Assembly (NCBI RefSeq): GCF_003347515.1
Contig: NZ_QEII01000324.1
Coordinates: 124,001 to 188,000, forward strand
DNA length: 64,000 nt
Reading direction: 5' to 3'
Source: Rhodoferax ferrireducens
GTDB taxonomy: Bacteria; Pseudomonadota; Gammaproteobacteria; Burkholderiales; Burkholderiaceae_C
A model generated the notes under the pieces. It had not been told where the DNA came from. It did not search any database and was given only the letters and a program-made list of their open reading frames with translations. Shown here in pieces: positions 12,259 through 40,460 of the stretch (the stretch's first letter is position 1; every line of letters begins with the position of its first letter). The position numbers were made by a program, and so were the translations under genes.

Positions 12259-13110
12259 GTGCCCCTGCCTTTTCTGACTCATGCCCGTGCGCCGCTGACC
12301 TGCGAGGTCGATGCCGTCAACGAGTACGGTGAGCCGCAACAGATCTCGATTCCTGCCGAGCGCGCGCTCACGGTGTACGTGGACAAGCGCGAACTGGTGA
12401 CACTGATGACCTTGGGTGCCCAGCCTGAATTGCTGGTGCTGGGCTTTTTGCGCAACCAGCGGCTGGTGCAGTCGGTGGACGAGGTGGAGTCCATCACCGT
12501 GGACTGGGAAGTGGGCGCGGCGGCTGTGAAAACGCGCCAAGGCATCTCCGATATTGAAGCGCGTACCTCTAAACGTGTGGTGACCACCGGCTGCGGTCAG
12601 GGCAGCGTGTTTGGCGACTTGATGGCGGAAGTGGACCGCCTGGTGCTGCCCGAAGCGCGCCTCACCCAGTCGCAACTTTATGGCATTGTCAACGTCATCC
12701 GCTTGCAAGAGACCACCTACAAATCAGCCGGTTCGGTGCACGGTTGCGCCTTGTTCCAGGGCGAAGAAATGCTGGTGTTTGTGGAGGATGTCGGTCGCCA
12801 CAACGCCATCGATACCATTGCCGGCTGGATGTGGCTGCAAGGCAGGCAAGCCATGTCAGGCCATGACAAAGTGTTCTACACCACGGGTCGCCTGACCAGC
12901 GAGATGGTGATCAAATCAGCCCAAATGGGCGTGCCCATTGTGGTGTCGCGCAGCGGTATCACCCAGATGGGGTACGAGGTGGCGCAGCGCCTAGGCCTGT
13001 GCACGATTGGGCGGGCCACCAACAAGCGCTTTCTTTGCTACAGCGCGCCGGAACGCTTGCGACTGCAATCCGAACTGGCGGGTGCCCGGCTACAGGCCGC
13101 CGGGCGGTAG
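12259..13110 (+). CDS. fdhD: FdhD sulfurtransferase for formate dehydrogenase
   Basis: 283-residue FdhD family protein, needed to transfer sulfur from a cysteine desulfurase to the molybdenum cofactor of formate dehydrogenase. Family motifs are seen: PAERALTVYVDKREL near residue 32, TTGCGQGSVFGDL near 110, VFVEDVGRHNAIDT near 173 and YTTGRLTSEMV near 208. Only one Cys is present where the E. coli protein has Cys-x2-Cys. Translation appears to start at GTG 12259; no better start lies downstream. The 3' end is part of the direct repeat that flanks the guanidine island. Confidence 0.94.
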   Translation: MPLPFLTHARAPLTCEVDAVNEYGEPQQISIPAERALTVYVDKRELVTLMTLGAQPELLVLGFLRNQRLVQSVDEVESITVDWEVGAAAVKTRQGISDIEARTSKRVVTTGCGQGSVFGDLMAEVDRLVLPEARLTQSQLYGIVNVIRLQETTYKSAGSVHGCALFQGEEMLVFVEDVGRHNAIDTIAGWMWLQGRQAMSGHDKVFYTTGRLTSEMVIKSAQMGVPIVVSRSGITQMGYEVAQRLGLCTIGRATNKRFLCYSAPERLRLQSELAGARLQAAGR

Positions 13111-13126
13111 CGATGAAGTCCGTGTC

Positions 13127-13186
13127 TCAGGTCGGGACCAGCCTGGTGCTGACCGCGGCCTCGTCGAGGTTGGTGAATGTGTTGGA
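13127..13186 (-). pseudogene. 3' remnant of the small gene found intact at 23428-23661
   Basis: Read on the minus strand this encodes SNTFTNLDEAAVSTRLVPT followed by TGA. The intact gene at the other end of the island ends NTTFSDLDEAVINAKLAPT, in register without gaps and about half identical. Nothing resembling the rest of the gene is found upstream, so it is a truncated leftover. Confidence 0.75.
13134..13150 (+). promoter_or_regulatory. NtrC-like enhancer box
   Basis: GGGACCA-GCC-TGGTGCT matches 11 of 14 defined positions of the NtrC dyad TGCACCA-N3-TGGTGCA. It is centred about 74 bp upstream of the predicted sigma-54 start site. It lies inside the gene remnant. Confidence 0.5.
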
Positions 13187-13189
13187 TGT

Positions 13190-13205
13190 TGGCACGGCTA
13201 TTGCA
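13190..13205 (+). promoter_or_regulatory. Sigma-54 (RpoN) promoter of the guanidine operon
   Basis: TGGCACGGCTATTGCA, preceded by T, fits the consensus YTGGCACG-N4-TTGCW at every position. The conserved GG and GC have the required spacing. Transcription should start near 13216, about 28 nt before the riboswitch aptamer. This implies control by nitrogen limitation through NtrC or a similar activator. Confidence 0.8.
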
Positions 13206-13243
13206 TAGCTATTCGGGAGAGGCGTTTACGCCGCATCACAAAG

Positions 13244-13340
13244 AAAACTAGGGTTCCGGCCACGCAAGTGGTGTCTGGTCCGAGAGTTTTCGGCACTCCG
13301 TATTGGAGGGCTCCACGGAGGGACAAAAGCCCGGGAGAAG
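13244..13340 (+). promoter_or_regulatory. Guanidine-I (ykkC) riboswitch
   Basis: The aptamer's conserved blocks appear in order: ACTAGGGTTCCGG (13248-13260), GTCTGGTCCGAGAG (13273-13286), a variable stem, ACGGAGGGACAAAAGCCCGG (13315-13334) and GAGA. These are the hallmark strings of the ykkC subtype that binds guanidinium. It lies in the leader between a sigma-54 promoter and a guanidine-type ABC importer gene. The expression platform has no clear T-run terminator; a GGCG/CGCC hairpin (about 13355-13367) and the GGAG ribosome site at 13382 suggest translational control. Confidence 0.93.
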
Positions 13341-13391
13341 CTTGCTGTAGCGCAGGCGTCTCTCGCCGTTCCCACCACTATGGAGTCTCTC

Positions 13392-14489
13392 ATGCCCCTG
13401 AACTATTCCAAATTTACAACCTGCGAAGCCGTCACTGGACGTCGCAACATGCACACACTTTGTGCGCAATTCAATCTGCAAACCACAAAAAGCGGAACTC
13501 AGCCCCGAATCGGTGCATTCAAGCGCATCGTTGCCTTCATCGTGACGAGTGCGGCCTTGCTGATGGCCACTACCCCAGCCCGGGCCGAGATCAAGGTCGG
13601 TGTTTCTGATTGGCCCGGTTGGGTCGCGTGGTATGTGGCGCAAGAAAAAGGCTTTTTCAAAAAGCACAAGGCCGACGTCAAGCTGGTCTGGTTTGCCAAC
13701 TACACCGACTCTATTTCGGCGCTGTCTTCGGGGCAGCTGGATGCCAATTCCCAGACCTGGTCGGACACCATGGGGCCGCTGGCCAAAGGCATTCCTGTGA
13801 AGGCGGTGCTGGCCAACGACAACTCGGCCGGCAACGATGCGCTGGTGGTTAAACCAGGCATCAAGTCCGTCAAGGAGCTGAAGGGGAAAAGCGTCGCGCT
13901 CGAGCAGTTCAGCGTTTCGCATTTTGTGCTCGTGAATGCCCTGGCCAAAAATGGCATGAAGCAAGACGATGTGAAGATCGTCAATCTGGCCGCCGGTGAT
14001 GCGGCCGCCGCCTTCATGACCGGCCGGGTGGACGCCGCCGTGGTCTGGAACCCCTGGATCAGCCAGATTGAAGCCAGCGGCAAAGGGCGCGCCATCTTCA
14101 CCTCCAAAGACATGCCCGGTCTGGTACCCGACTTGCTGGTAGCGCAGGACAAGGCCATCCAGACCAAGCGCAAGGAACTGGTCGGCATGATCCGCGCCTG
14201 GTTTGACACCATGGCCTTCATTGAGAAAAATCCGGCCGAAGCCTCCAAAATCATGGCCAAGGTGGTCGGTATGTCGGCCAAGGAATATCAGGTGTTTTTG
14301 CCGGGCACCCGTTTCTTCGACGCCAAGCTGAATCAGGAAGCCTTCGGCCCGGCTACCAGCCCGGTGTCATTGATCGGCGCCGCGCCCACGATCGAGAAGT
14401 TCCTGGTGGACAACAAGCTGATTGAAGGCAAGCCGGACATCGCACGCGGTATCGACAGCTCCTTGCTGGCCGAAGCCCTGAAACCTTGA
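13392..14489 (+). CDS. Guanidine-operon ABC transporter, periplasmic binding protein
   Basis: 365-residue NMT1/SsuA/TauA-type solute-binding protein that probably captures guanidine in the periplasm. A signal peptide with hydrophobic core AFIVTSAALLMATT ends at ARA (about residue 64); the mature protein starts EIKVGVSDWPGWVAWYVAQE. Start ATG 13392 has GGAG six bases upstream; ATG 13380 and 13449 are alternatives, and the N-terminal region before the hydrophobic core is unusually long. It is the first gene after the guanidine-I riboswitch and is followed by permease and ATPase genes, so the system is built as an importer. Confidence 0.9.
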   Translation: MPLNYSKFTTCEAVTGRRNMHTLCAQFNLQTTKSGTQPRIGAFKRIVAFIVTSAALLMATTPARAEIKVGVSDWPGWVAWYVAQEKGFFKKHKADVKLVWFANYTDSISALSSGQLDANSQTWSDTMGPLAKGIPVKAVLANDNSAGNDALVVKPGIKSVKELKGKSVALEQFSVSHFVLVNALAKNGMKQDDVKIVNLAAGDAAAAFMTGRVDAAVVWNPWISQIEASGKGRAIFTSKDMPGLVPDLLVAQDKAIQTKRKELVGMIRAWFDTMAFIEKNPAEASKIMAKVVGMSAKEYQVFLPGTRFFDAKLNQEAFGPATSPVSLIGAAPTIEKFLVDNKLIEGKPDIARGIDSSLLAEALKP

Positions 14490-14571
14490 CGGCGCGAATT
14501 CGCCCCTTTGCGCCGAGTCAAATGACCGGCCGGGGCGGGTGTCCACCAACCTCACACAAGAGAGTTTTCTC

Positions 14572-15396
14572 ATGCAGAACAAGCCTCATTCGTCCCGTCG
14601 CGTGCGTCAGGGTCTCTGGTCGGTTCGTACGCCCATCACGCGCAAGCAGTACTGGGCTTTGGCCCTGATGGGGCTTGTTGTGCCGCTGGGAATGTGGACT
14701 TTGCTGGCGGCTTACGGCGGCATGAACCAGGTGTTCATGCCCTCACCCGCCCAAGTGCTCAGCCGCGCCATTGATTGGGGAATCGATGCAGATTTGCTGG
14801 GCGACATCGGCATCAGCTTCGGCCGGGTGGTTGGTGGTTTCCTGCTATCGGCACTGATTGCCCTGCCGCTCGGCCTGTTGATCGGCTCCTTTCGCTCGGT
14901 GCAAGCGTTGCTGGAGCCGCTCACTGATTTCATCCGCTACATGCCCGCCGTCGCGTTCATTCCGCTGGTCATGTTGTGGGTGGGCATTGATGAGGGCTCC
15001 AAGGTGGCCATCATTTTCATCGGCACTTTTTTCCAGATGGTGCTGATGGTGGCGGAAGATGTGCGCCGTGTGCCCAGTGCGCAGGTGGAGGCGGCGCAGA
15101 CCATGGGTGCCAGCCGCCGTGAGCTGATTGAGAAAGTCATCCTTCCCAGTGCCAAGCCCGCACTGCTCGACACTCTGCGCGTGACGATGGGCTGGGCCTG
15201 GACCTATCTGGTGGTGGCCGAACTCGTGGCCGCGAGTTCAGGTCTGGGCTACGCCATTCTGAAGGCGCAGCGCTTCCTGCAGACCGACAAGATCTTCGCC
15301 GGCATCATGATGATCGGCGTCATTGGACTGGTGACCGACCAGGCTTTTCGCTGGCTTCATCGCCGCGCGTTTCCCTGGCTTTATTTGAAGGGGTGA
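14572..15396 (+). CDS. Guanidine-operon ABC transporter, permease
   Basis: 274-residue inner-membrane permease of the SsuC/TauC/NrtB type with about six hydrophobic segments. The coupling-loop motif EAAQTMGASRRELIEKVILP (about residues 174-193) is present. ATG 14572 is chosen for its AAGAGAG ribosome site; a GTG at 14539 in frame is less likely. The stop codon lies 5 bp before the ATPase start. The substrate is inferred as guanidine from the riboswitch and downstream enzymes. Confidence 0.9.
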   Translation: MQNKPHSSRRVRQGLWSVRTPITRKQYWALALMGLVVPLGMWTLLAAYGGMNQVFMPSPAQVLSRAIDWGIDADLLGDIGISFGRVVGGFLLSALIALPLGLLIGSFRSVQALLEPLTDFIRYMPAVAFIPLVMLWVGIDEGSKVAIIFIGTFFQMVLMVAEDVRRVPSAQVEAAQTMGASRRELIEKVILPSAKPALLDTLRVTMGWAWTYLVVAELVAASSGLGYAILKAQRFLQTDKIFAGIMMIGVIGLVTDQAFRWLHRRAFPWLYLKG

Positions 15397-15401
15397 AACG
15401 C

Positions 15402-16232
15402 ATGATGCAAGCCAAAATTCAGATCCGTGACCTGTACAAACGCTTTGAGGGTGCCACCGTCAATGCGCTTGAAAACATTGAACTCGACATTGCAGAAAAC
15501 GAGTTCGTGACCTTTGTCGGTGCTTCGGGCTGCGGCAAGTCCACCTTGCTGCGCACCATCGCTGGTCTGGAAACGCATACCTCCGGAACCTTGCTGGTCG
15601 ATGGCCAACCGGTTGACGGCCCCGGCATCGACCGCGCGATGGTGTTCCAGCACTACAGCCTCTATCCCTGGATGACGGTGCAGGGCAACATCAAGTTTTG
15701 CCGCCAGCTCGAAGCCCACACGCGCGAGCGCACATCCGGCGATGTCGAAGCGGCCGCAGGTCGCGCCGATGCGCTGCTGAACCTCATGGGGCTCACGCCA
15801 GCAGCCCATGCCTGGCCCAACCAGCTCTCGGGCGGCATGCAGCAACGGGTGGCCATTGCACGCGCCCTGATGGGTCGTCCCGAGGTCCTCTTGATGGACG
15901 AGCCCTTCGGCGCACTCGATGCCCAGACCCGTGAAGTCATGCACGACCTCATTCGCCATGTTCACCGGCTGGAGAAGGCAACCGTCATCTTCGTCACCCA
16001 CGATGTGGAGGAGGCCATCTATCTGGGCAGCCGCGTGGTGCTGATGGCCCCGCGTCCCGGCCGCATCGACACCATCTTTGAAATTCCCTTTGGCGAGGCG
16101 CGCACCCAGGACCTCAAACATGCGCCGGAATTTCTGCGCCTGAAGCGGGAAATTCTGGACCGCATCCGCGATACCTCCGGCATGAAGACCGATCTTGAAC
16201 AACTGCAGCGCCTCTCGGCGCAGCCCGTCTGA
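15402..16232 (+). CDS. Guanidine-operon ABC transporter, ATPase
   Basis: 276-residue ABC ATPase of the nitrate/sulfonate/taurine group. It shows Walker [10 protein letters not shown] (about residues 42-50), Q-loop [11 protein letters not shown] (about 81), signature [15 protein letters not shown] (about 141), Walker [13 protein letters not shown] (about 161) and the switch His in VTHDVEEA (about 196). It energises the importer from the cytoplasmic side. ATG 15402 follows AAGGGG by 8 bp; a GTG at 15393 overlapping the permease stop is possible. Confidence 0.92.
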
Positions 16233-16249
16233 ACCGAAAAGGAAACCCC

Positions 16250-17086
16250 ATGAACCCAGCCGAAATTCTTGACGACCCGCTGAAGGTCATTCCCGCGAAT
16301 CCATTGAGCACGGCCCCGGTGGACGCGCCCAGCTTCTGGCAACGTTTCCCTGACGCCGCCATGGCGGGCGTGACGACAGACTGCGTGATGTGGTCCGAAG
16401 TGATGCCCGGCGGTGGCCACTGGTCGTGGCGTTTGCCGCGCGGCACCGCCCTGCGATTCATCGCGCTGGAGCCCGGCGCCAACGCCAGCATCGTGCTCTA
16501 CGCCGCCCAGGAAAAGTTGGAGCGTTACAACATGCCCGACTCGCTCAAGGCCCAGCACACCGCGCACTACCAACGCGGCCATGTGCTCATGAGCGACATG
16601 GGCCGCGCCATGGCGAGTTTCACGGCCGACAGCCTGGGCTGGCACGATCCGCTCGGTGGTTTGCTGGACGCCGAGCTGCTCGCCAAAAAATACGGCGAGC
16701 GTCGCTTCGCGGAGCATCGCAACACCATGTACCGCTCGGGCAAGGATGGTCTGCTGATCGAGATCGGCAAGTACGGCTTGACCCGGCGCGACCTGATCGC
16801 GCCGGTCAATCTGTTTTCCAAAGTCAGTATCGATACCGAGGGTCAATTTGCCTACGCCGCAGATCACGCCAAGACTGGTGATTTTGTTGAGTTGCGATTC
16901 GACATGGATGTGATCCTGGCGATCTCAACGGCCCCGCATCCGCTTGACCCCACGCCCGGCTATGCCCCCAAGAAGCTCGGCCTGGTGGCCTGGCGCTGCG
17001 GTGCCGCGCCAGCCGACGACTATTGCCGCGCCTTCCGCCCCGAGAACGCACGGGCCCTGCACAACAGCGACATGCTGTACCTCTGA
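16250..17086 (+). CDS. Carboxyguanidine deiminase subunit (urea-carboxylase-associated protein, DUF1989)
   Basis: 278-residue DUF1989 protein of the type long annotated as urea carboxylase-associated protein; such pairs are now known as carboxyguanidine deiminases (CgdAB) that turn carboxyguanidine into allophanate and ammonia. Visible features include [20 protein letters not shown] (about residue 40), the [22 protein letters not shown] region (about 95-115) with two His, and C-terminal [14 protein letters not shown] near 227. A GTACGGLTRRDL-like [14 protein letters not shown] block is shared with the next gene. An AAGGA ribosome site precedes it. Which subunit letter applies I cannot say. 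Confidence 0.87.
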
Positions 17087-17096
17087 GGACACTCAC

Positions 17097-17777
17097 ATGA
17101 ACCCGATTGCAAGCACTCCTAAAGCCGCCGCCATCCGCCTCCAGGACAGCGTCCTGGACCCTGCCGATGCGGCGCAAGACCTGCGCCACCCCGCTGGCGA
17201 ACCTATTCTGTTCGAGCTCAAGGCGGGCCAGACCCTGCGCATCGTCGATCTGGAGGGCAACCAGGCGGCTGACGTCATTTTTTACAACCGCCACGACAAC
17301 GCCGAGCATTACAGCGCGACCGAGACCATGCTGCGCCAAGGCGGCATCTACCTCACCACGGGGTCCGTGCTGTACAGCAACGATGGCCGAGCCATGCTCA
17401 CCATCGTCGCCGACACCTGCGGTCGCCACGACACGCTGGGTGGCGCCTGCGCGGCCGAGAGCAACACCGTGCGTTACGCGCTGCAGAAGAAATACATGCA
17501 CAGCTGCCGGGACAACTACCTTATTGCGCTGCAACACGCCGACATCGGCCTGACCAAGCGCGACCTGGTGCCCAACATCAATTTCTTCATGAACGTACCC
17601 GTCACGGCGGAGGGCGACCTCACCTTCGCCGACGGCGTGTCCGGTCCCGGCAAGTACGTGGAGATGCAGGCGGCGATGGACTTGTGGGTGCTGATCTCCA
17701 ACTGCCCGCAGCTCAACAACCCGTGCAACGCCTACAACCCGACGCCGACCCGCCTGCTGATCTGGGACCCGGCCTGA
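17097..17777 (+). CDS. Carboxyguanidine deiminase subunit (second DUF1989 protein)
   Basis: 226-residue partner of the preceding protein, also DUF1989. Conserved residues include [14 protein letters not shown] (about 50-63), ERYS-like [14 protein letters not shown] (about 68-81), [18 protein letters not shown] (about 106-123) with Cys and His candidates for metal or catalysis, and [19 protein letters not shown] (about 153-171). The pair should convert the carboxylase product to allophanate. It starts 10 bp after the first subunit; 109 bp with a second riboswitch separate it from the carboxylase gene. Confidence 0.88.
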
Positions 17778-17824
17778 CAAGCGGTCGAAGCCTCAAAAAT
17801 ATTTGGCATTTTTGCCTTCAACCC

Positions 17825-17874
17825 CGCGCCGGGACGACCCGATGCGCTAGCAAACTTATAGCGGGACGACTCGC
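17825..17874 (+). promoter_or_regulatory. Guanidine-II (mini-ykkC) riboswitch
   Basis: Two hairpins with identical ACGA loops, the defining feature of mini-ykkC RNA. Hairpin 1 is CGGG-ACGA-CCCG (17830-17841), extendable to 17825-17846 with one C/A mismatch. Hairpin 2 is GCGGG-ACGA-CTCGC (17861-17874), with one G/T pair. The linker is short and hairpin 2 sits 12 nt before the start codon of guanidine carboxylase, next to a weak GGTGA ribosome site, as expected for translational control by loop-loop pairing on guanidine binding. Confidence 0.88.
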
Positions 17875-17886
17875 CACGGTGACCTC

Positions 17887-20800
17887 ATGTTCAACAAGGT
17901 TCTCATTGCCAATCGCGGCGCCATCGCCTGCCGCATCATCCGCACGTTGAAGAAACTGGGTGTGCGCAGCGTGGCGGTTTATTCCGAGGCCGATGCGCAA
18001 TCCCGACATGTGCGCGAGGCGGATGAAGCGTATTGCATCGGGCCGGTCCCGGCGGCACAAAGCTATTTGCGCGCTGAACGCATCCTTGAGGTAGCTCTGG
18101 AATGTGGCGCCCAGGCGATCCACCCGGGTTATGGCTTCCTGTCAGAAAACCCCGGATTTTCCGAAGCCTGCGAGTTGGCGGGTATCGCCTTCATCGGTCC
18201 CAGCGCCGGGCAGATGCGCGCCTTTGGTCTCAAGCACACCGCCCGCGCGCTGGCCGAAGCCCACGCGGTGCCGCTGCTACCCGGTTCCGGCTTGCTGGGC
18301 GATCTCGATCATGCCCGCACCGAGGCGCTGCGCATCGGCTACCCGGTGATGCTCAAGAGCACGGCCGGTGGTGGCGGTATCGGCATGCGGCTGGTCTGGC
18401 GCGAAGCCGAACTGGCGGACGCTTTTGCGGCCGTCGAGCGCCTGGCGCGTGCGAACTTCAAAGATGCCGGGCTGTTTCTCGAAAAGTATGTGGAGCAGGC
18501 TCGCCACATCGAGGTCCAGGTGTTCGGCGATGGCCGCGGTGAAGTGATTGCACTCGGTGAGCGTGACTGCTCGGTGCAGCGGCGCAATCAGAAGGTGATC
18601 GAGGAAACGCCAGCGCCGGGCTTGACGGATGCCCAACGGAGTTCGCTGCACGCGACGGCGGTGCGGCTGGCCAAGGCCGTGAACTACCGCTCTGCCGGCA
18701 CCGTGGAGTTTGTCTACGACGCAACCAACGCCCAGTTTTATTTTCTTGAAGTCAACACCCGCCTGCAGGTCGAGCACGGTGTGACCGAACAGGTGTGCCA
18801 GGTCGATCTGGTCGAGTGGATGGTGTTGCTCGCAGCGGGCGAGTTGCCGCCCTTGCTCGGTTTGACCCCAAGCCCGCAAGGTGCCTCGATCCAGGTGCGT
18901 CTCTACGCCGAAGACCCGGGCAAGAACTTTCAGCCGTGCGCGGGTCTGCTCACCGAAGTGCAGTGGCCCGCCGAGGCGCGTGTTGACGACTGGGTCGAGC
19001 GGGGTACCGAGGTGCCCGCCTGGTACGACCCGATGCTGGCCAAAATCATTGTCACGGCCGACGATCGGGTCGCGGCGCTGACCAAGCTGGAAGCCGCGCT
19101 GGACGCTACCCGCATCGCCGGGATCGAGACCAACCTCGACTACCTGCGCCAGGTCATCCGCGACCCGGTGTTCCGTGAAGGCAGGCAGGTCACCCGCTTC
19201 CTCAACGACTTCCAGTACCGGCCGGCGACGATCGATGTCATGGAAGCCGGTGTCCAAACCTCGGTGCAGGACTGGCCGGGGCGCATCGGCTACTGGAACG
19301 TTGGGGTGCCGCCCTCTGGCCCCATGGATGCCTACGCCCACCGCATGGCCAACCGGCTGGTGGGCAACGCGGCCGAGGCGGCGGGGCTGGAATGTACGCT
19401 GGCTGGACCCACGCTGCGCTTCAATGTTGAGACGGTGATAGCCGTGACGGGCGCTCCGGTGCCGGTGACGCTCGACGGCGTGCCGCTTGCCATGTGGCAG
19501 TCGCACCGCGTGTCGGCGGGCGCGCTCTTGGCCATCGGCCGCGCTGACGCTGGCTGTCGTTTTTATCTGGCCGTCGGTGGCGGGCTGGATGTGCCGACCT
19601 ATCTGGGCAGCTGCTCCACCTTTACCCTGGGCCAGTTCGGCGGACACGCCGGGCGCAACCTGCGCTTGGGCGACGTGCTGCATCTGCTGGCCCCGGCCAG
19701 CGGCAGCGCGGGTCTGGCCAGCGCGCCCGCCACGATTCCCGTCTACGGCAAGCAGTGGGACGTGGGGGTGCTGTATGGCCCGCACGGCGCGCCCGATTTC
19801 TTCCTGGACGAGGACATCGCCAGCTTCTTCGCCACCGACTGGGCGGTGCACTACAACTCCAGCCGCACCGGGGTGCGCCTGATCGGACCCAAGCCGACCT
19901 GGGCCCGCACCGATGGCGGCGAGGCCGGCTTGCATCCTTCCAACATCCACGACAACGCCTACGCCATCGGGGCCATTGACTTCACCGGCGATATGCCGGT
20001 GATCTTGGGGCCGGATGGTCCCAGCCTGGGCGGCTTTGTTTGCCCGGCCGTGGTCGTCCATGCCGAACTGTGGAAGATTGGCCAATTGCGTCCCGGCGAC
20101 ACCGTGCGCTTTCACAGGCTGTCTTTGGCGCAAGCCAGCGACCGTGAGGCCGCCCTGGAAGCCAGTCTGGCCAGTCTGGCCGCCTCGCTACCCGACGCGC
20201 CACAGGATGATGCAGCGGCTTGCGCGACGCCCGTCCTGTTTGAACGCGCAGGGCAGGGCGGCGCGCCAACCGTGACCTACCGCCAGGCCGGCGACCGCTA
20301 TTTGCTGGTGGAATACGGTCCGCTGGTGCTGGACATTGAACTGCGTTTGCGCGTCCACGCGCTGATGGAGTGGCTCAAGGCCCAGAACGGCGGTGCCGGC
20401 TTGAACGGCATTGTTGACCTCACGCCCGGCATCCGCTCGCTGCAGGTTCATTTCGATCCGGCGCAGCTGCCGCGCGCAGCATTGCTGGCAACGCTACAAG
20501 CGGCCGAGGACGGCCTGCCAGCGGTTGACGACATGGTGGTGCCGAGCCGCGTGGTGCACCTGCCGCTGTCATGGGACGACGCTCAGACCCGCCTCGCCAT
20601 CGAAAAATACATGCAGTCGGTGCGCAAGGACGCCCCCTGGTGCCCGAGCAACATCGAGTTCATCCGCCGCATCAATGGTCTGGGCAGCCTCGATGAAGTG
20701 TTCGATATCGTTTTTCAGGCCAGTTACCTGGTGCTGGGGCTGGGGGATGTTTACCTGGGCGCCCCGGTGGCGACGCCGGTCGATCCGCGCCATCGCCTGG

Positions 20801-21513
20801 TCACCACCAAATACAACCCGGCCCGCACCTGGACGCCGGAAAATGCCGTCGGCATCGGCGGCGCCTACCTGTGCGTGTACGGCATGGAAGGCCCGGGCGG
20901 CTACCAGTTCGTCGGCCGCACGCTGCAGATGTGGAACCGCTGGCGCCACGGTGAAACGGGCAGCCCGGAGTTCAGCCAGCCCTGGCTGCTGCGCTTTTTC
21001 GACCAGATCCGCTTCTACAAAGTGTCGGAGGCGGAGCTGCTCCAGATCCGCGCCGATTTCCCCAACGGCGGCTACCCGCTGCGCATAGAGGAAACCACCT
21101 TCAGCCTCAAGGACTACCGGCGGTTCCTCGACGACAACGCCGCCAGCATTGGCACCTTCAAGGCCACGCAGCAGTCTGAATTCGAGGCTGAACGCGAGCG
21201 CTGGAAGGCCAGCGGGCAGGCCGAATACGCCAGTGACGCGGATGTGGCCGAGGCCGGACCCGACAGCGAGCTTGACCTGCCCGAGGGCGGCCGCGCGGTG
21301 GCGACCACTGTGCCGGGCAATGTCTGGAAGATTGAGGTCGCGGTCGGCGATGAGGTGCAGGCCGGCGATCTGTTGCTGGTGATCGAGTCGATGAAGATGG
21401 AATTCAGCGTGCTGGCGCCCAGCGCCGGCACGGTGCACCAGCTCTATTGCCGTGAAGGTGCCCCGGTGGCGGCGGGCCAGGACGTGGTGGTCATTCTCGA
21501 AAAAACGCATTAA
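17887..21513 (+). CDS. Guanidine carboxylase (urea carboxylase family)
   Basis: 1208-residue biotin enzyme that would carboxylate guanidine with ATP and bicarbonate. Domains in order: biotin carboxylase (about 1-450; [14 protein letters not shown] at the start, ATP-grasp [10 protein letters not shown] near 159, [15 protein letters not shown] near 285); KipA-like domain (about 455-760; [18 protein letters not shown]); KipI-like domain (about 780-1000); and a C-terminal biotinyl domain with ESMKMEF, biotinylated Lys1170. Family members act on urea or guanidine. Guanidine is favoured here by two guanidine riboswitches and the deiminase pair. The second riboswitch controls this gene locally. Confidence 0.93.
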
Positions 21514-21524
21514 GGACAAGCAAC

Positions 21525-23387
21525 ATGAATCCGAACCTGAACGAACTTTCCTTCGACCTGGCCGCCCTCCGGGCCGCCTATGCCGGTGGCGTGACGCTGC
21601 GCCAGATCATCGGCGAGGCGATGCGCCGCTGTGATGACCTGAGCCACCGGGCCTTTATTCACCGCCTGTCGCTGACGGAAATCGAGCCCTACCTCGCACG
21701 TCTTGAAACACTTGATCCGGCGAGCCTGCCCCTGTATGGCATTCCCTTCGCCATCAAGGACAACATCGATCTGGCCGGCGTGCCCACCACCGCCGGGTGC
21801 CCGGAATTCGCCTACACCCCGACCGAACATGCTTTTGTGGTCGAGCAATTGATTGCCGCCGGCGCGGTGCCCATTGGCAAGACCAACCTGGATCAGTTCG
21901 CCACCGGTCTTAATGGCACGCGCTCGCCGTATGGTGCCTGCCGCAACGCATTTGATCCGGACTACATATCGGGTGGCTCCAGTTCCGGGTCATCCGTGAC
22001 TGTCGCCAAGGGCTGGGTGAGCTTCTCGCTCGGCACCGACACCGCCGGCTCGGGCCGCGTGCCCGCGTCGTTCAACAACCTCATCGGCTTGAAGCCGACC
22101 TGTGGTTTGCTGTCGTCCACCGGCGTCGTGCCGGCCTGCCGGTCGCTGGACACGGTGTCCATCTTCGCCCTGACCGCGGGGGACGCGCAAGCGATCCTCA
22201 ACGTGGCGGCGGCTTTTGACGCGGCGGATCCCTTCAGCCGCCGCGCCGAACCCTTTGGCGTCGATTTCTCAGCCGGGCCGTTTCGTTTTGGCGTGCCAGG
22301 GCAAGACCAGTTGGCGTTTTTCGGCGATGTTGGCGCCGTGGCTCTATTTGAAACAGCCGTGGCGCGATTGAAAAAACTGGGCGGAACCCCGGTCGAGATC
22401 GACTTTGCCCCTTTTCTGGAGGTGGCGCGTCTGTTGTACGAAGGGCCGTGGGTGGCTGAACGTTACGTCGCGATCCGTGACTTCATTGATGCGCAGCCGC
22501 AGGCGGTGATCGAGCCCGTGCGCAGCATCATCGCGAGCGGCCGTGATAAATCGGCGCCGGACGCCTTTGCGGCGGCTTACCGGCTCAAGGCACTCAAGCG
22601 CAGCTGCGATGCCGTGTGGTCACACATCGACTGCCTGCTGACGCCGACTGCTGGCACGATCTACCGCATTGCCGAGATGCAGGCCGATCCGGTCCGGCTC
22701 AACTCGAATCTGGGCTACTACACCAACTTCGTCAATCTGCTCGACTACAGCGCCGTAGCGCTGCCGGCCGGTTTGATTGAGCGTGGCGCGGCTACCGCGC
22801 TGCCCTGGGGGGTGACGCTGGTCGCGCCCGCCCATCGTGATGTTCCCTTGCTGCGGCTGGCCGACCGGGCGCATCGGACCCTGGGCGGGAATCTGGGCGC
22901 GACGGCCAGCGCACTTGCCGGCACGCCGGTTGGCACTGGCGCGCCACAAGGGTCGCTGAAATCCGGCACGGTGCAGCTGGCGGTATGTGGCGCGCACCTG
23001 TCGGGTTTGCCGCTCAACCCCCAACTGACCGACCGCGGGGCACGCTTGCTTGCCACGACGCATTCGGCCCCTGAATACCGTTTGTTCGCTCTTGCCGGCG
23101 GTCCACCCCAGCGGCCGGGCATGGTCCGCGTGGCCAAAGGCGGCGCTGCCATTGCACTGGAGGTTTGGGAGTTGCCCGCCGAGCACTTCGGTAGTTTCGT
23201 GGCGGCCATTCCGGCCCCGCTGGCGATTGGCAAAGTGCTGTTGGCGGATGGAGCGTTGGTTTGCGGCTTCGTCTGCGATGCCTTGGGTGTTGCGGGGGCG
23301 CAGGACATTACGCAGCACGGCGGCTGGAAGGCGTGGCTAATGGCAAACGCAACTCGACCGCATCCGACGGCAGGCGAACACCCCTAA
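21525..23387 (+). CDS. atzF: Allophanate hydrolase
   Basis: 620-residue amidase-signature enzyme that splits allophanate into two ammonia and two CO2, the last step of the pathway. The Ser-cisSer-Lys triad is visible as Lys78 (FAIKDNID), Ser153 (GGSSSGSS) and Ser176 (DTAGSGR). A second domain from about residue 480 (VQLAVCGAHLSGLPLNPQL, later LPAEHFGSFVAAIPAPLAIG) is the usual C-terminal domain of full-length AtzF/DUR1-type proteins. It starts 11 bp after the carboxylase stop and ends the operon just before the right flanking repeat. Confidence 0.94.
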   Translation: MNPNLNELSFDLAALRAAYAGGVTLRQIIGEAMRRCDDLSHRAFIHRLSLTEIEPYLARLETLDPASLPLYGIPFAIKDNIDLAGVPTTAGCPEFAYTPTEHAFVVEQLIAAGAVPIGKTNLDQFATGLNGTRSPYGACRNAFDPDYISGGSSSGSSVTVAKGWVSFSLGTDTAGSGRVPASFNNLIGLKPTCGLLSSTGVVPACRSLDTVSIFALTAGDAQAILNVAAAFDAADPFSRRAEPFGVDFSAGPFRFGVPGQDQLAFFGDVGAVALFETAVARLKKLGGTPVEIDFAPFLEVARLLYEGPWVAERYVAIRDFIDAQPQAVIEPVRSIIASGRDKSAPDAFAAAYRLKALKRSCDAVWSHIDCLLTPTAGTIYRIAEMQADPVRLNSNLGYYTNFVNLLDYSAVALPAGLIERGAATALPWGVTLVAPAHRDVPLLRLADRAHRTLGGNLGATASALAGTPVGTGAPQGSLKSGTVQLAVCGAHLSGLPLNPQLTDRGARLLATTHSAPEYRLFALAGGPPQRPGMVRVAKGGAAIALEVWELPAEHFGSFVAAIPAPLAIGKVLLADGALVCGFVCDALGVAGAQDITQHGGWKAWLMANATRPHPTAGEHP

Positions 23388-23398
23388 ATTAGCCCGCG

Positions 23399-23488
23399 CG
23401 GGCGGTAGCGATCAAGTCCGCGGTGTCTCAGGTTGGGGCCAGTTTGGCGTTGATCACGGCCTCGTCGAGGTCGGAGAAAGTGGTGTTG
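23399..23488 (+). repeat. Right flanking repeat of the guanidine island
   Basis: Direct-repeat partner of 13101-13186. It holds a copy of the fdhD terminal bases (GGGCGGTAG), a linker and the 3' end of the intact small gene. A perfect 12-bp GC palindrome (23392-23403) spans its left boundary. Confidence 0.8.
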
Positions 23489-23661
23489 TGGCGGTCCGTG
23501 AGCGGGCCACCGCCGGGAATGGCGTCGCCGTGCTCGTCGTAGCCAATCGCCTTGAACTTCCATACGCCGTTAATGAGCTTCAGGTAACCCACATGCTCAT
23601 CCTGGTCCCTCAGGACGCGATAAACGCCGTCGTTCAACTTGCTGAGTGTCAGTTTATTCAT
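23428..23661 (-). CDS. Small hypothetical protein
   Basis: 77-residue cytoplasmic protein opening MNKLTLSKLNDGVYRVLRDQ and ending LDEAVINAKLAPT. It has no Cys, no signal and no helix-turn-helix that I can see; the centre (VGYLKLINGVWKFKAIGYD) looks like a small beta-rich fold. The start is ATG 23661; the frame is open further upstream but runs into the MarR gene. Its 3' end is duplicated in truncated form at 13127-13186, so it once adjoined fdhD before the guanidine island came between them. Function unknown. Confidence 0.75.
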   Translation of the reverse strand: MNKLTLSKLNDGVYRVLRDQDEHVGYLKLINGVWKFKAIGYDEHGDAIPGGGPLTDRHNTTFSDLDEAVINAKLAPT

Positions 23662-40372: not shown

Positions 40373-40460
40373 TGGAGGAGAAGGTGGGATTCGAACCCAC
40401 GGTACCTTTCGGTACGCCTGATTTCGAGTCAGGTACATTCGGCCACTCTGCCACTTCTCC
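40373..40460 (-). tRNA. tRNA-Ser (anticodon CGA)
   Basis: The complement folds as a class II tRNA: acceptor GGAGAAG/CTTCTCC, anticodon stem CCTGA/TCAGG around loop CTCGAAA (anticodon CGA), a long variable arm (GTACC-GAAA-GGTACC) and T-arm GTGGG-TTCGAAT-CCCAC. CCA is encoded. The discriminator base is U rather than the G common in tRNA-Ser. Confidence 0.96.

Follow-up and report, generated by a model that had tools for sequence, protein, structure and literature searches.

The window, that is the whole 64-kb stretch of DNA analysed here, carries on its forward strand a guanidine operon headed by a guanidine-I (ykkC) aptamer, which the original prediction had placed at 13244-13340 and which the covariance model RF00442 recovered at 13237-13339 (91.8 bits against a gathering threshold of 63). 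The aptamer is followed by the genes of an ABC transporter, namely the substrate-binding protein (13392-14489; Pfam NMT1, and TIGR01728 with 209.9 bits against a cut-off of 163.5 for the frame 13380-14489), the NitT/TauT-like permease (14572-15396; best NCBIfam matches SaoP and TauC, both under their cut-offs) and the ATP-binding protein (15402-16232; best NCBIfam match ntrCD, under its cut-off). For the first of these genes the listed ATG at 13380 has no Shine-Dalgarno sequence recognisable by eye, and the in-frame ATG at 13392 has the motif GGAG at 13382-13385; the true start is, therefore, probably 13392. Downstream are encoded two proteins of the DUF1989 family (PF09347), of the CgdA type (UAAP1; 16250-17086; TIGR03425, 328.5 bits, cut-off 205.95) and the CgdB type (UAAP2; 17097-17777; TIGR03424, 332.5 bits, cut-off 284.7), then a biotin enzyme of 1208 residues (17887-21513) and, starting 11 nt past the stop codon of the latter, the allophanate hydrolase AtzF (21525-23387; TIGR02713, 799.6 bits, cut-off 511.05).

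The NCBIfam label of the biotin enzyme is urea carboxylase (TIGR02712, 1892.9 bits, cut-off 1303.85). However, guanidine carboxylases were set apart in a 2024 paper by the aspartate residues at the positions corresponding to 1330 and 1584 of the Kluyveromyces lactis enzyme (PMC11410670). When the window protein is aligned to 5i8i, the K. lactis enzyme, its Asp698 stands opposite Asn1330, and its Asp954 opposite position 1584, the latter counted by hand. Since both signature residues are present, the product of 17887-21513 is by the signature-aspartate rule a guanidine carboxylase, as judged from its sequence, and the same two residues rule out the identity as a urea carboxylase. Its nearest relatives among the matches listed were the carboxylases of Hydrogenophaga and of a Burkholderiales metagenome-assembled genome.

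Between the CgdB-type gene and the carboxylase gene there is a gap of 109 nt (17778-17886), where the original prediction had recognised, at 17825-17874, in two ACGA hairpins a riboswitch of the guanidine-II (mini-ykkC) class. The comparison with the Rfam covariance models, which it had proposed as a check, gave significant matches to the models of both classes. Thus, when the whole window was scanned with Rfam release 15 at the gathering thresholds, RF01068 (Guanidine-II) matched 17826-17874 of the forward strand with 35.3 bits against a gathering threshold of 32 (E = 0.0023 over the 64 kb scanned), and the only other matches were the guanidine-I aptamer and a minus-strand tRNA (40376-40460). 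When 13000-18100 was scanned permissively, both riboswitches came up again, together with one chance match far under its cut-off. In the 6.87-Mb assembly a single match was found at E <= 0.001 for each of the two families; the candidates of the first look that were scored numbered 150 of 929 and 150 of 200. The first hairpin, P1 (17826-17847; GCGC-CGGG, the loop ACGA at 17834-17837, and CCCG and GCGC separated by a bulge), consists of 4 + 4 pairs with the 2-nt AU bulge at 17842-17843; a linker of 13 nt (17848-17860) connects it to P2 (17861-17874; GCGGG, the loop ACGA at 17866-17869, and CUCGC), which has 5 pairs. This corresponds to the layout described for the guanidine-II class, with two GC-rich hairpins carrying ACGR loops and a linker between them (PMC9094411). 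The two strands of the window together contain a single pair of ACGR hairpins so arranged, counting stems of 4 or more pairs and a loop-to-loop distance of 22-40 nt, and such a pair was reproduced from the 109-nt gap in 2 of 20,000 dinucleotide shuffles, where as much as 70 nt between the loops was allowed. The chance origin of the hairpin pair is ruled out by these shuffles and the Rfam score; the folding energy of the whole gap is ordinary (z of -0.36 and -1.07).

Guanidine-II riboswitches are defined by the cooperative binding of two guanidine ligands. That the element of the window is a decaying, non-functional copy of such a riboswitch is very improbable: its score lies near the cut-off, P1 is bulged, and in P2 the second pair from the loop is a G.U found in the window alone among 69 leaders (the others having 66 G-C and 2 A-T, in a set in which standard pairs near the loops are built in, because the leaders of this set and of the 61-leader set used below were chosen for having two hairpins, those of L071 and L128 being identical), but neither of the ACGA loops nor their G-C closing pairs are impaired, and the 13 pairs of P1 and P2 (8 + 5) are standard throughout. 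The G.U pair may reduce the affinity for guanidine. The assignment of 17826-17874 as a guanidine-II riboswitch that precedes the guanidine carboxylase gene in an operon headed by a guanidine-I riboswitch is thus supported at the level of sequence.

The presence of two sensors in one operon was considered unusual in the original prediction, a view that does not hold, because the paired layout is already in print and is frequent among the relatives (39 of 73 wider carboxylase loci and 19 of 25 loci of the same family, as specified below); the reading of the arrangement as a rare one is ruled out by this literature and these counts. A 2025 review describes the division between guanidine-I and guanidine-II in Raoultella, Erwinia and Klebsiella (PMC12186494), and the window resembles these enterobacterial operons in that guanidine-I goes with the genes of the importer and the carboxyguanidine deaminase, and guanidine-II with those of the carboxylase and the hydrolase, while it differs from the cases named there in that, to judge from its nearest carboxylases, it seems to belong to the Burkholderiales. 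The operon of the window is, accordingly, an ordinary further example of an arrangement that is common and already published, and it represents no new kind of system. The first description of the paired arrangement may be that of Sinn et al. in 2021.

Within the family of the window, 299 genomes, its own included, were searched (E <= 0.001) under strict filters, at the expense of weak matches, and guanidine-II was found in 32 and guanidine-I in 29 of them. Forty stretches were compared, comprising all the guanidine-I matches of the family except that of the window and five stretches picked on guanidine-II, and the carboxylase start could be located in 25 of the 40; in L096 guanidine-I lies at the opposite end of the same contig, which was taken as circular. 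Two ACGR hairpins satisfying the stem rule stand in the gap before the carboxylase in 19 of these 25 loci, 17 of which, L067 among them, were also recognised by Infernal (one of the 17 below the gathering score), and L085 and L089 have the hairpin pair by pattern alone, without guanidine-II at the gathering score. L064 contains two GACGAC motifs, yet fails both the stem rule and Infernal. Neither a hairpin pair nor a GACGAC pair was found in L063, L084, L088, L091 and L092, where the CgdB and carboxylase matches overlap or are separated by no more than 39 nt.

For the wider survey one genome per species was scanned with an alignment of ten carboxylases as the query, and of the best 80 loci listed, the 73 whose upstream sequence reached 6.4 kb or more were counted, the seven shorter ones being left out. 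Infernal found guanidine-I upstream in 63 of these 73 loci, guanidine-II within 250 nt of the carboxylase in 40, and both riboswitches at E <= 0.001 in 39, a proportion that is no unbiased frequency, because only the best 80 matches were listed and all ten seed carboxylases came from guanidine-I operons, nine of which also had guanidine-II or two GACGAC motifs. The Infernal coordinates were matched to the loci without contig numbers, and the patterns of the loci agree with them for 63 of 63 guanidine-I and 44 of 44 guanidine-II matches. With the patterns added (guanidine-II by pattern only in L108, L109, L130, L137 and L166), the same 73 of the best 80 divide into 43 loci with both riboswitches, 20 with guanidine-I only, 2 with guanidine-II only and 8 with neither. 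Among the 39 Infernal pairs from the best 80 listed, guanidine-II scores above the gathering threshold in 35 by hand count, and below it in L133, L140, L153 and L156; the spacing from guanidine-I to guanidine-II is 1.6-4.5 kb in 38 of them and 6.7 kb in one. Both riboswitches score above the gathering thresholds, among the matches listed, in Leclercia, Enterobacter, Kosakonia, Pseudomonas, Paraburkholderia and Vibrio. The loci lacking guanidine-II are mostly those with little room for it: in 15 of the 20 guanidine-I-only loci from the best 80 listed the CgdB match is at most 26 nt from the carboxylase, as against at least 72 nt in the 43 paired loci of the same list. However, room alone fails to explain the absence, because five loci (L111, L112, L113, L125 and L158) combine guanidine-I with a 66-177-nt gap in which neither Infernal nor the pattern shows guanidine-II.

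The operon may be one transcription unit, as the original prediction had it, but the two riboswitches of the window might also be the separate leaders of two mRNAs, if the carboxylase and hydrolase genes were transcribed from a promoter of their own just upstream of guanidine-II. A promoter-like sequence CTGACA-18-AATATT at 17774-17803, the one site found in a scan of both strands of 17500-18000 (mean of 0.1 in 50 shuffles), speaks for such an arrangement, but with 9 of 12 consensus positions it is a weak match, and in several members of the family P1 begins soon after the CgdB stop codon, which leaves little space for a promoter outside cgdB. The same scan found none in 13050-13450 either, and its sensitivity is accordingly low. 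On balance, the second promoter appears rather unlikely.

The usual description of guanidine-I is that of a transcriptional switch whose expression platform is an intrinsic terminator. Simple consensus rules, however, revealed no terminator-like site in 13050-13450 of the window or within 200 nt, and at the 63 guanidine-I loci of the relatives such sites were present within 200 nt in 6 cases against a mean of 6.1 in ten rounds of mononucleotide shuffling under a simple consensus rule, so there was no enrichment. The guanidine-I leader of the window, in which no such site was found, may therefore act on translation, and the candidate Shine-Dalgarno sequence UGGAGU of the ATG at 13392 (13381-13386) is predicted to pair with the aptamer bases 13295-13300. 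In the free fold the occupancy of 13381-13386 is 0.94, and its pairing with 13295-13300, which belongs to the P2 arm of the aptamer, has a probability of 0.74-0.81 for five of six bases. When the aptamer was enforced, the site was freed in the shortest of three leaders only (from 0.94 to 0.61) and remained occupied in the two longer ones (0.94 to 0.94 and to 0.97), at a cost of 20-23 kcal/mol in a model that includes neither the ligand nor tertiary contacts. For this reason, the action of the guanidine-I leader on translation is only suggested by the folding model.

As regards the element before the carboxylase, we consider it likely that it is a bona fide guanidine-II riboswitch acting as a guanidine-dependent translational ON switch of the carboxylase, and possibly the hydrolase, within the operon led by guanidine-I, a reading chosen because of the position of the element and the published proposal. 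Guanidine would stabilise P1 and P2, and the folded hairpins would free the ribosome-binding site of the carboxylase before 17887, where the candidate Shine-Dalgarno sequence is GGUGA (17878-17882); without the ligand, the 5' arm of P1 (CGCC, 17827-17830) might mask GGUG (17878-17881), which is the weaker part of the scheme. The allophanate hydrolase, with its start so near the carboxylase stop codon, would possibly be switched as well through coupling. In the published model of guanidine-II the ligand-bound P1 and P2 form a kissing interaction, upon which the anti-Shine-Dalgarno sequence of the linker leaves the ribosome-binding site (PMC9094411). The E. coli sugE riboswitch, proposed to be a translational ON switch, has like the window two GC-rich ACGR hairpins, and differs from it in the putative anti-Shine-Dalgarno sequence, which is the linker in sugE (PMC9094411) and the P1 5' arm in the folds of short leaders of one sequence, that of the window.

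These folds were calculated for leaders from 17826 to 17889, 17895 and 17900, where, unconstrained, the pairing of GGUG with CGCC of the P1 5' arm has a probability of at least 0.96. On enforcing P1 and P2, at a cost of 3.2-3.8 kcal/mol, the occupancy of GGUGA decreased from 0.79, 0.80 and 0.96 to 0.49, 0.57 and 0.59, respectively. In the leaders extended to 17910, 17920 and 17940 the site was hardly freed (0.92 to 0.81, 0.96 to 0.78 and 0.96 to 0.83); the free-state partner of GGUGA in the 17940 leader is the coding region and not P1, and with the upstream context (17778-17920) the mean occupancy of 17876-17889 dropped from 0.66 to just 0.60, so that the reading based on the P1 arm is weakened by both of these folds. 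A shared anti-Shine-Dalgarno sequence was not found among the 61 leaders, as the P1 5' arm, the linker and the two P2 arms showed no greater complementarity to the ribosome-binding region of their own leader than to those of other leaders (permutations at least as strong as observed in 1664, 1985, 1565 and 1901 of 2000, respectively). The P1 3' arm showed a weak preference for its own region (equalled or exceeded in 75 of 2000 permutations), and the full P1 5' arm of the window, compared against its own site, tied for the fifth rank of the 61. The pairing of the P1 5' arm with the Shine-Dalgarno sequence is, consequently, put forward as a hypothesis for the sequence of the window, taken from models of short leaders. 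The broader proposition that both riboswitches are translational, each for its first gene, with the anti-Shine-Dalgarno sequence of guanidine-II in its own P1 5' arm and not in the linker, appears doubtful; if true, it would make the guanidine-II aptamer its own expression platform.

The lack of such complementarity of the P1 5' arm, the linker and P2 to the ribosome-binding region in the 61 leaders, many of which have no obvious Shine-Dalgarno sequence by eye, would also suit a guanidine-II element that binds guanidine and governs mRNA stability or Rho-dependent termination within the operon in place of ribosome access, but in most leaders the element stands just upstream of the start codon and the proposal in print is a translational one, which leaves this function improbable. 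The second translational lock envisaged in the original prediction agrees with the published proposal as to the translational level, and the folding of the window lends it weak, model-level support.

The closest counterpart is the guanidine carboxylase operon of Vreelandella boliviensis, both riboswitches of which were probed by Sinn et al. in 2025 (PMC12508155). Gd-I had an apparent KD of 44 uM for guanidine and did not bind methylguanidine in the tested range, and for Gd-II the apparent KD values with guanidine and methylguanidine were 93 and 83 uM. As regards the different affinity supposed for the second sensor in the original prediction, these values lie about two-fold apart for guanidine in V. 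boliviensis, and the sharper contrast is one of specificity, with Gd-II accepting methylguanidine (PMC12508155). The two operons share guanidine-I in the 5'-UTR and guanidine-II between cgdB and gca, as well as the genes of the ABC importer, cgdA/B, gca and atzF (PMC12508155). In the same source the role of Gd-II is proposed to be translational and Gd-I is called presumably transcriptional, unlike what is suggested by the guanidine-I leader of the window with no terminator-like site found, and mgdH and mgdL stand between gca and atzF, where the window has only the 11-nt junction (PMC12508155). Two unrelated sensors of guanidine in one assimilation operon recur, among the matches listed, in many Beta- and Gammaproteobacteria, and the reason for keeping both is therefore a fair question; because the carboxylase-hydrolase junction of the window is without mgdH and mgdL, its operon hints that the use of methylguanidine is not the whole reason.

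The entire guanidine operon is bracketed by a direct repeat of 63 nt (13122-13184 and 23423-23485; 81% identical), the downstream copy of which overlaps the end of a minus-strand ORF of 171 aa without a Pfam match. With 23380-23620 as the query, the repeat was located in the genome at those two sites only. It could have been left by an insertion or duplication that took place around the operon long ago.
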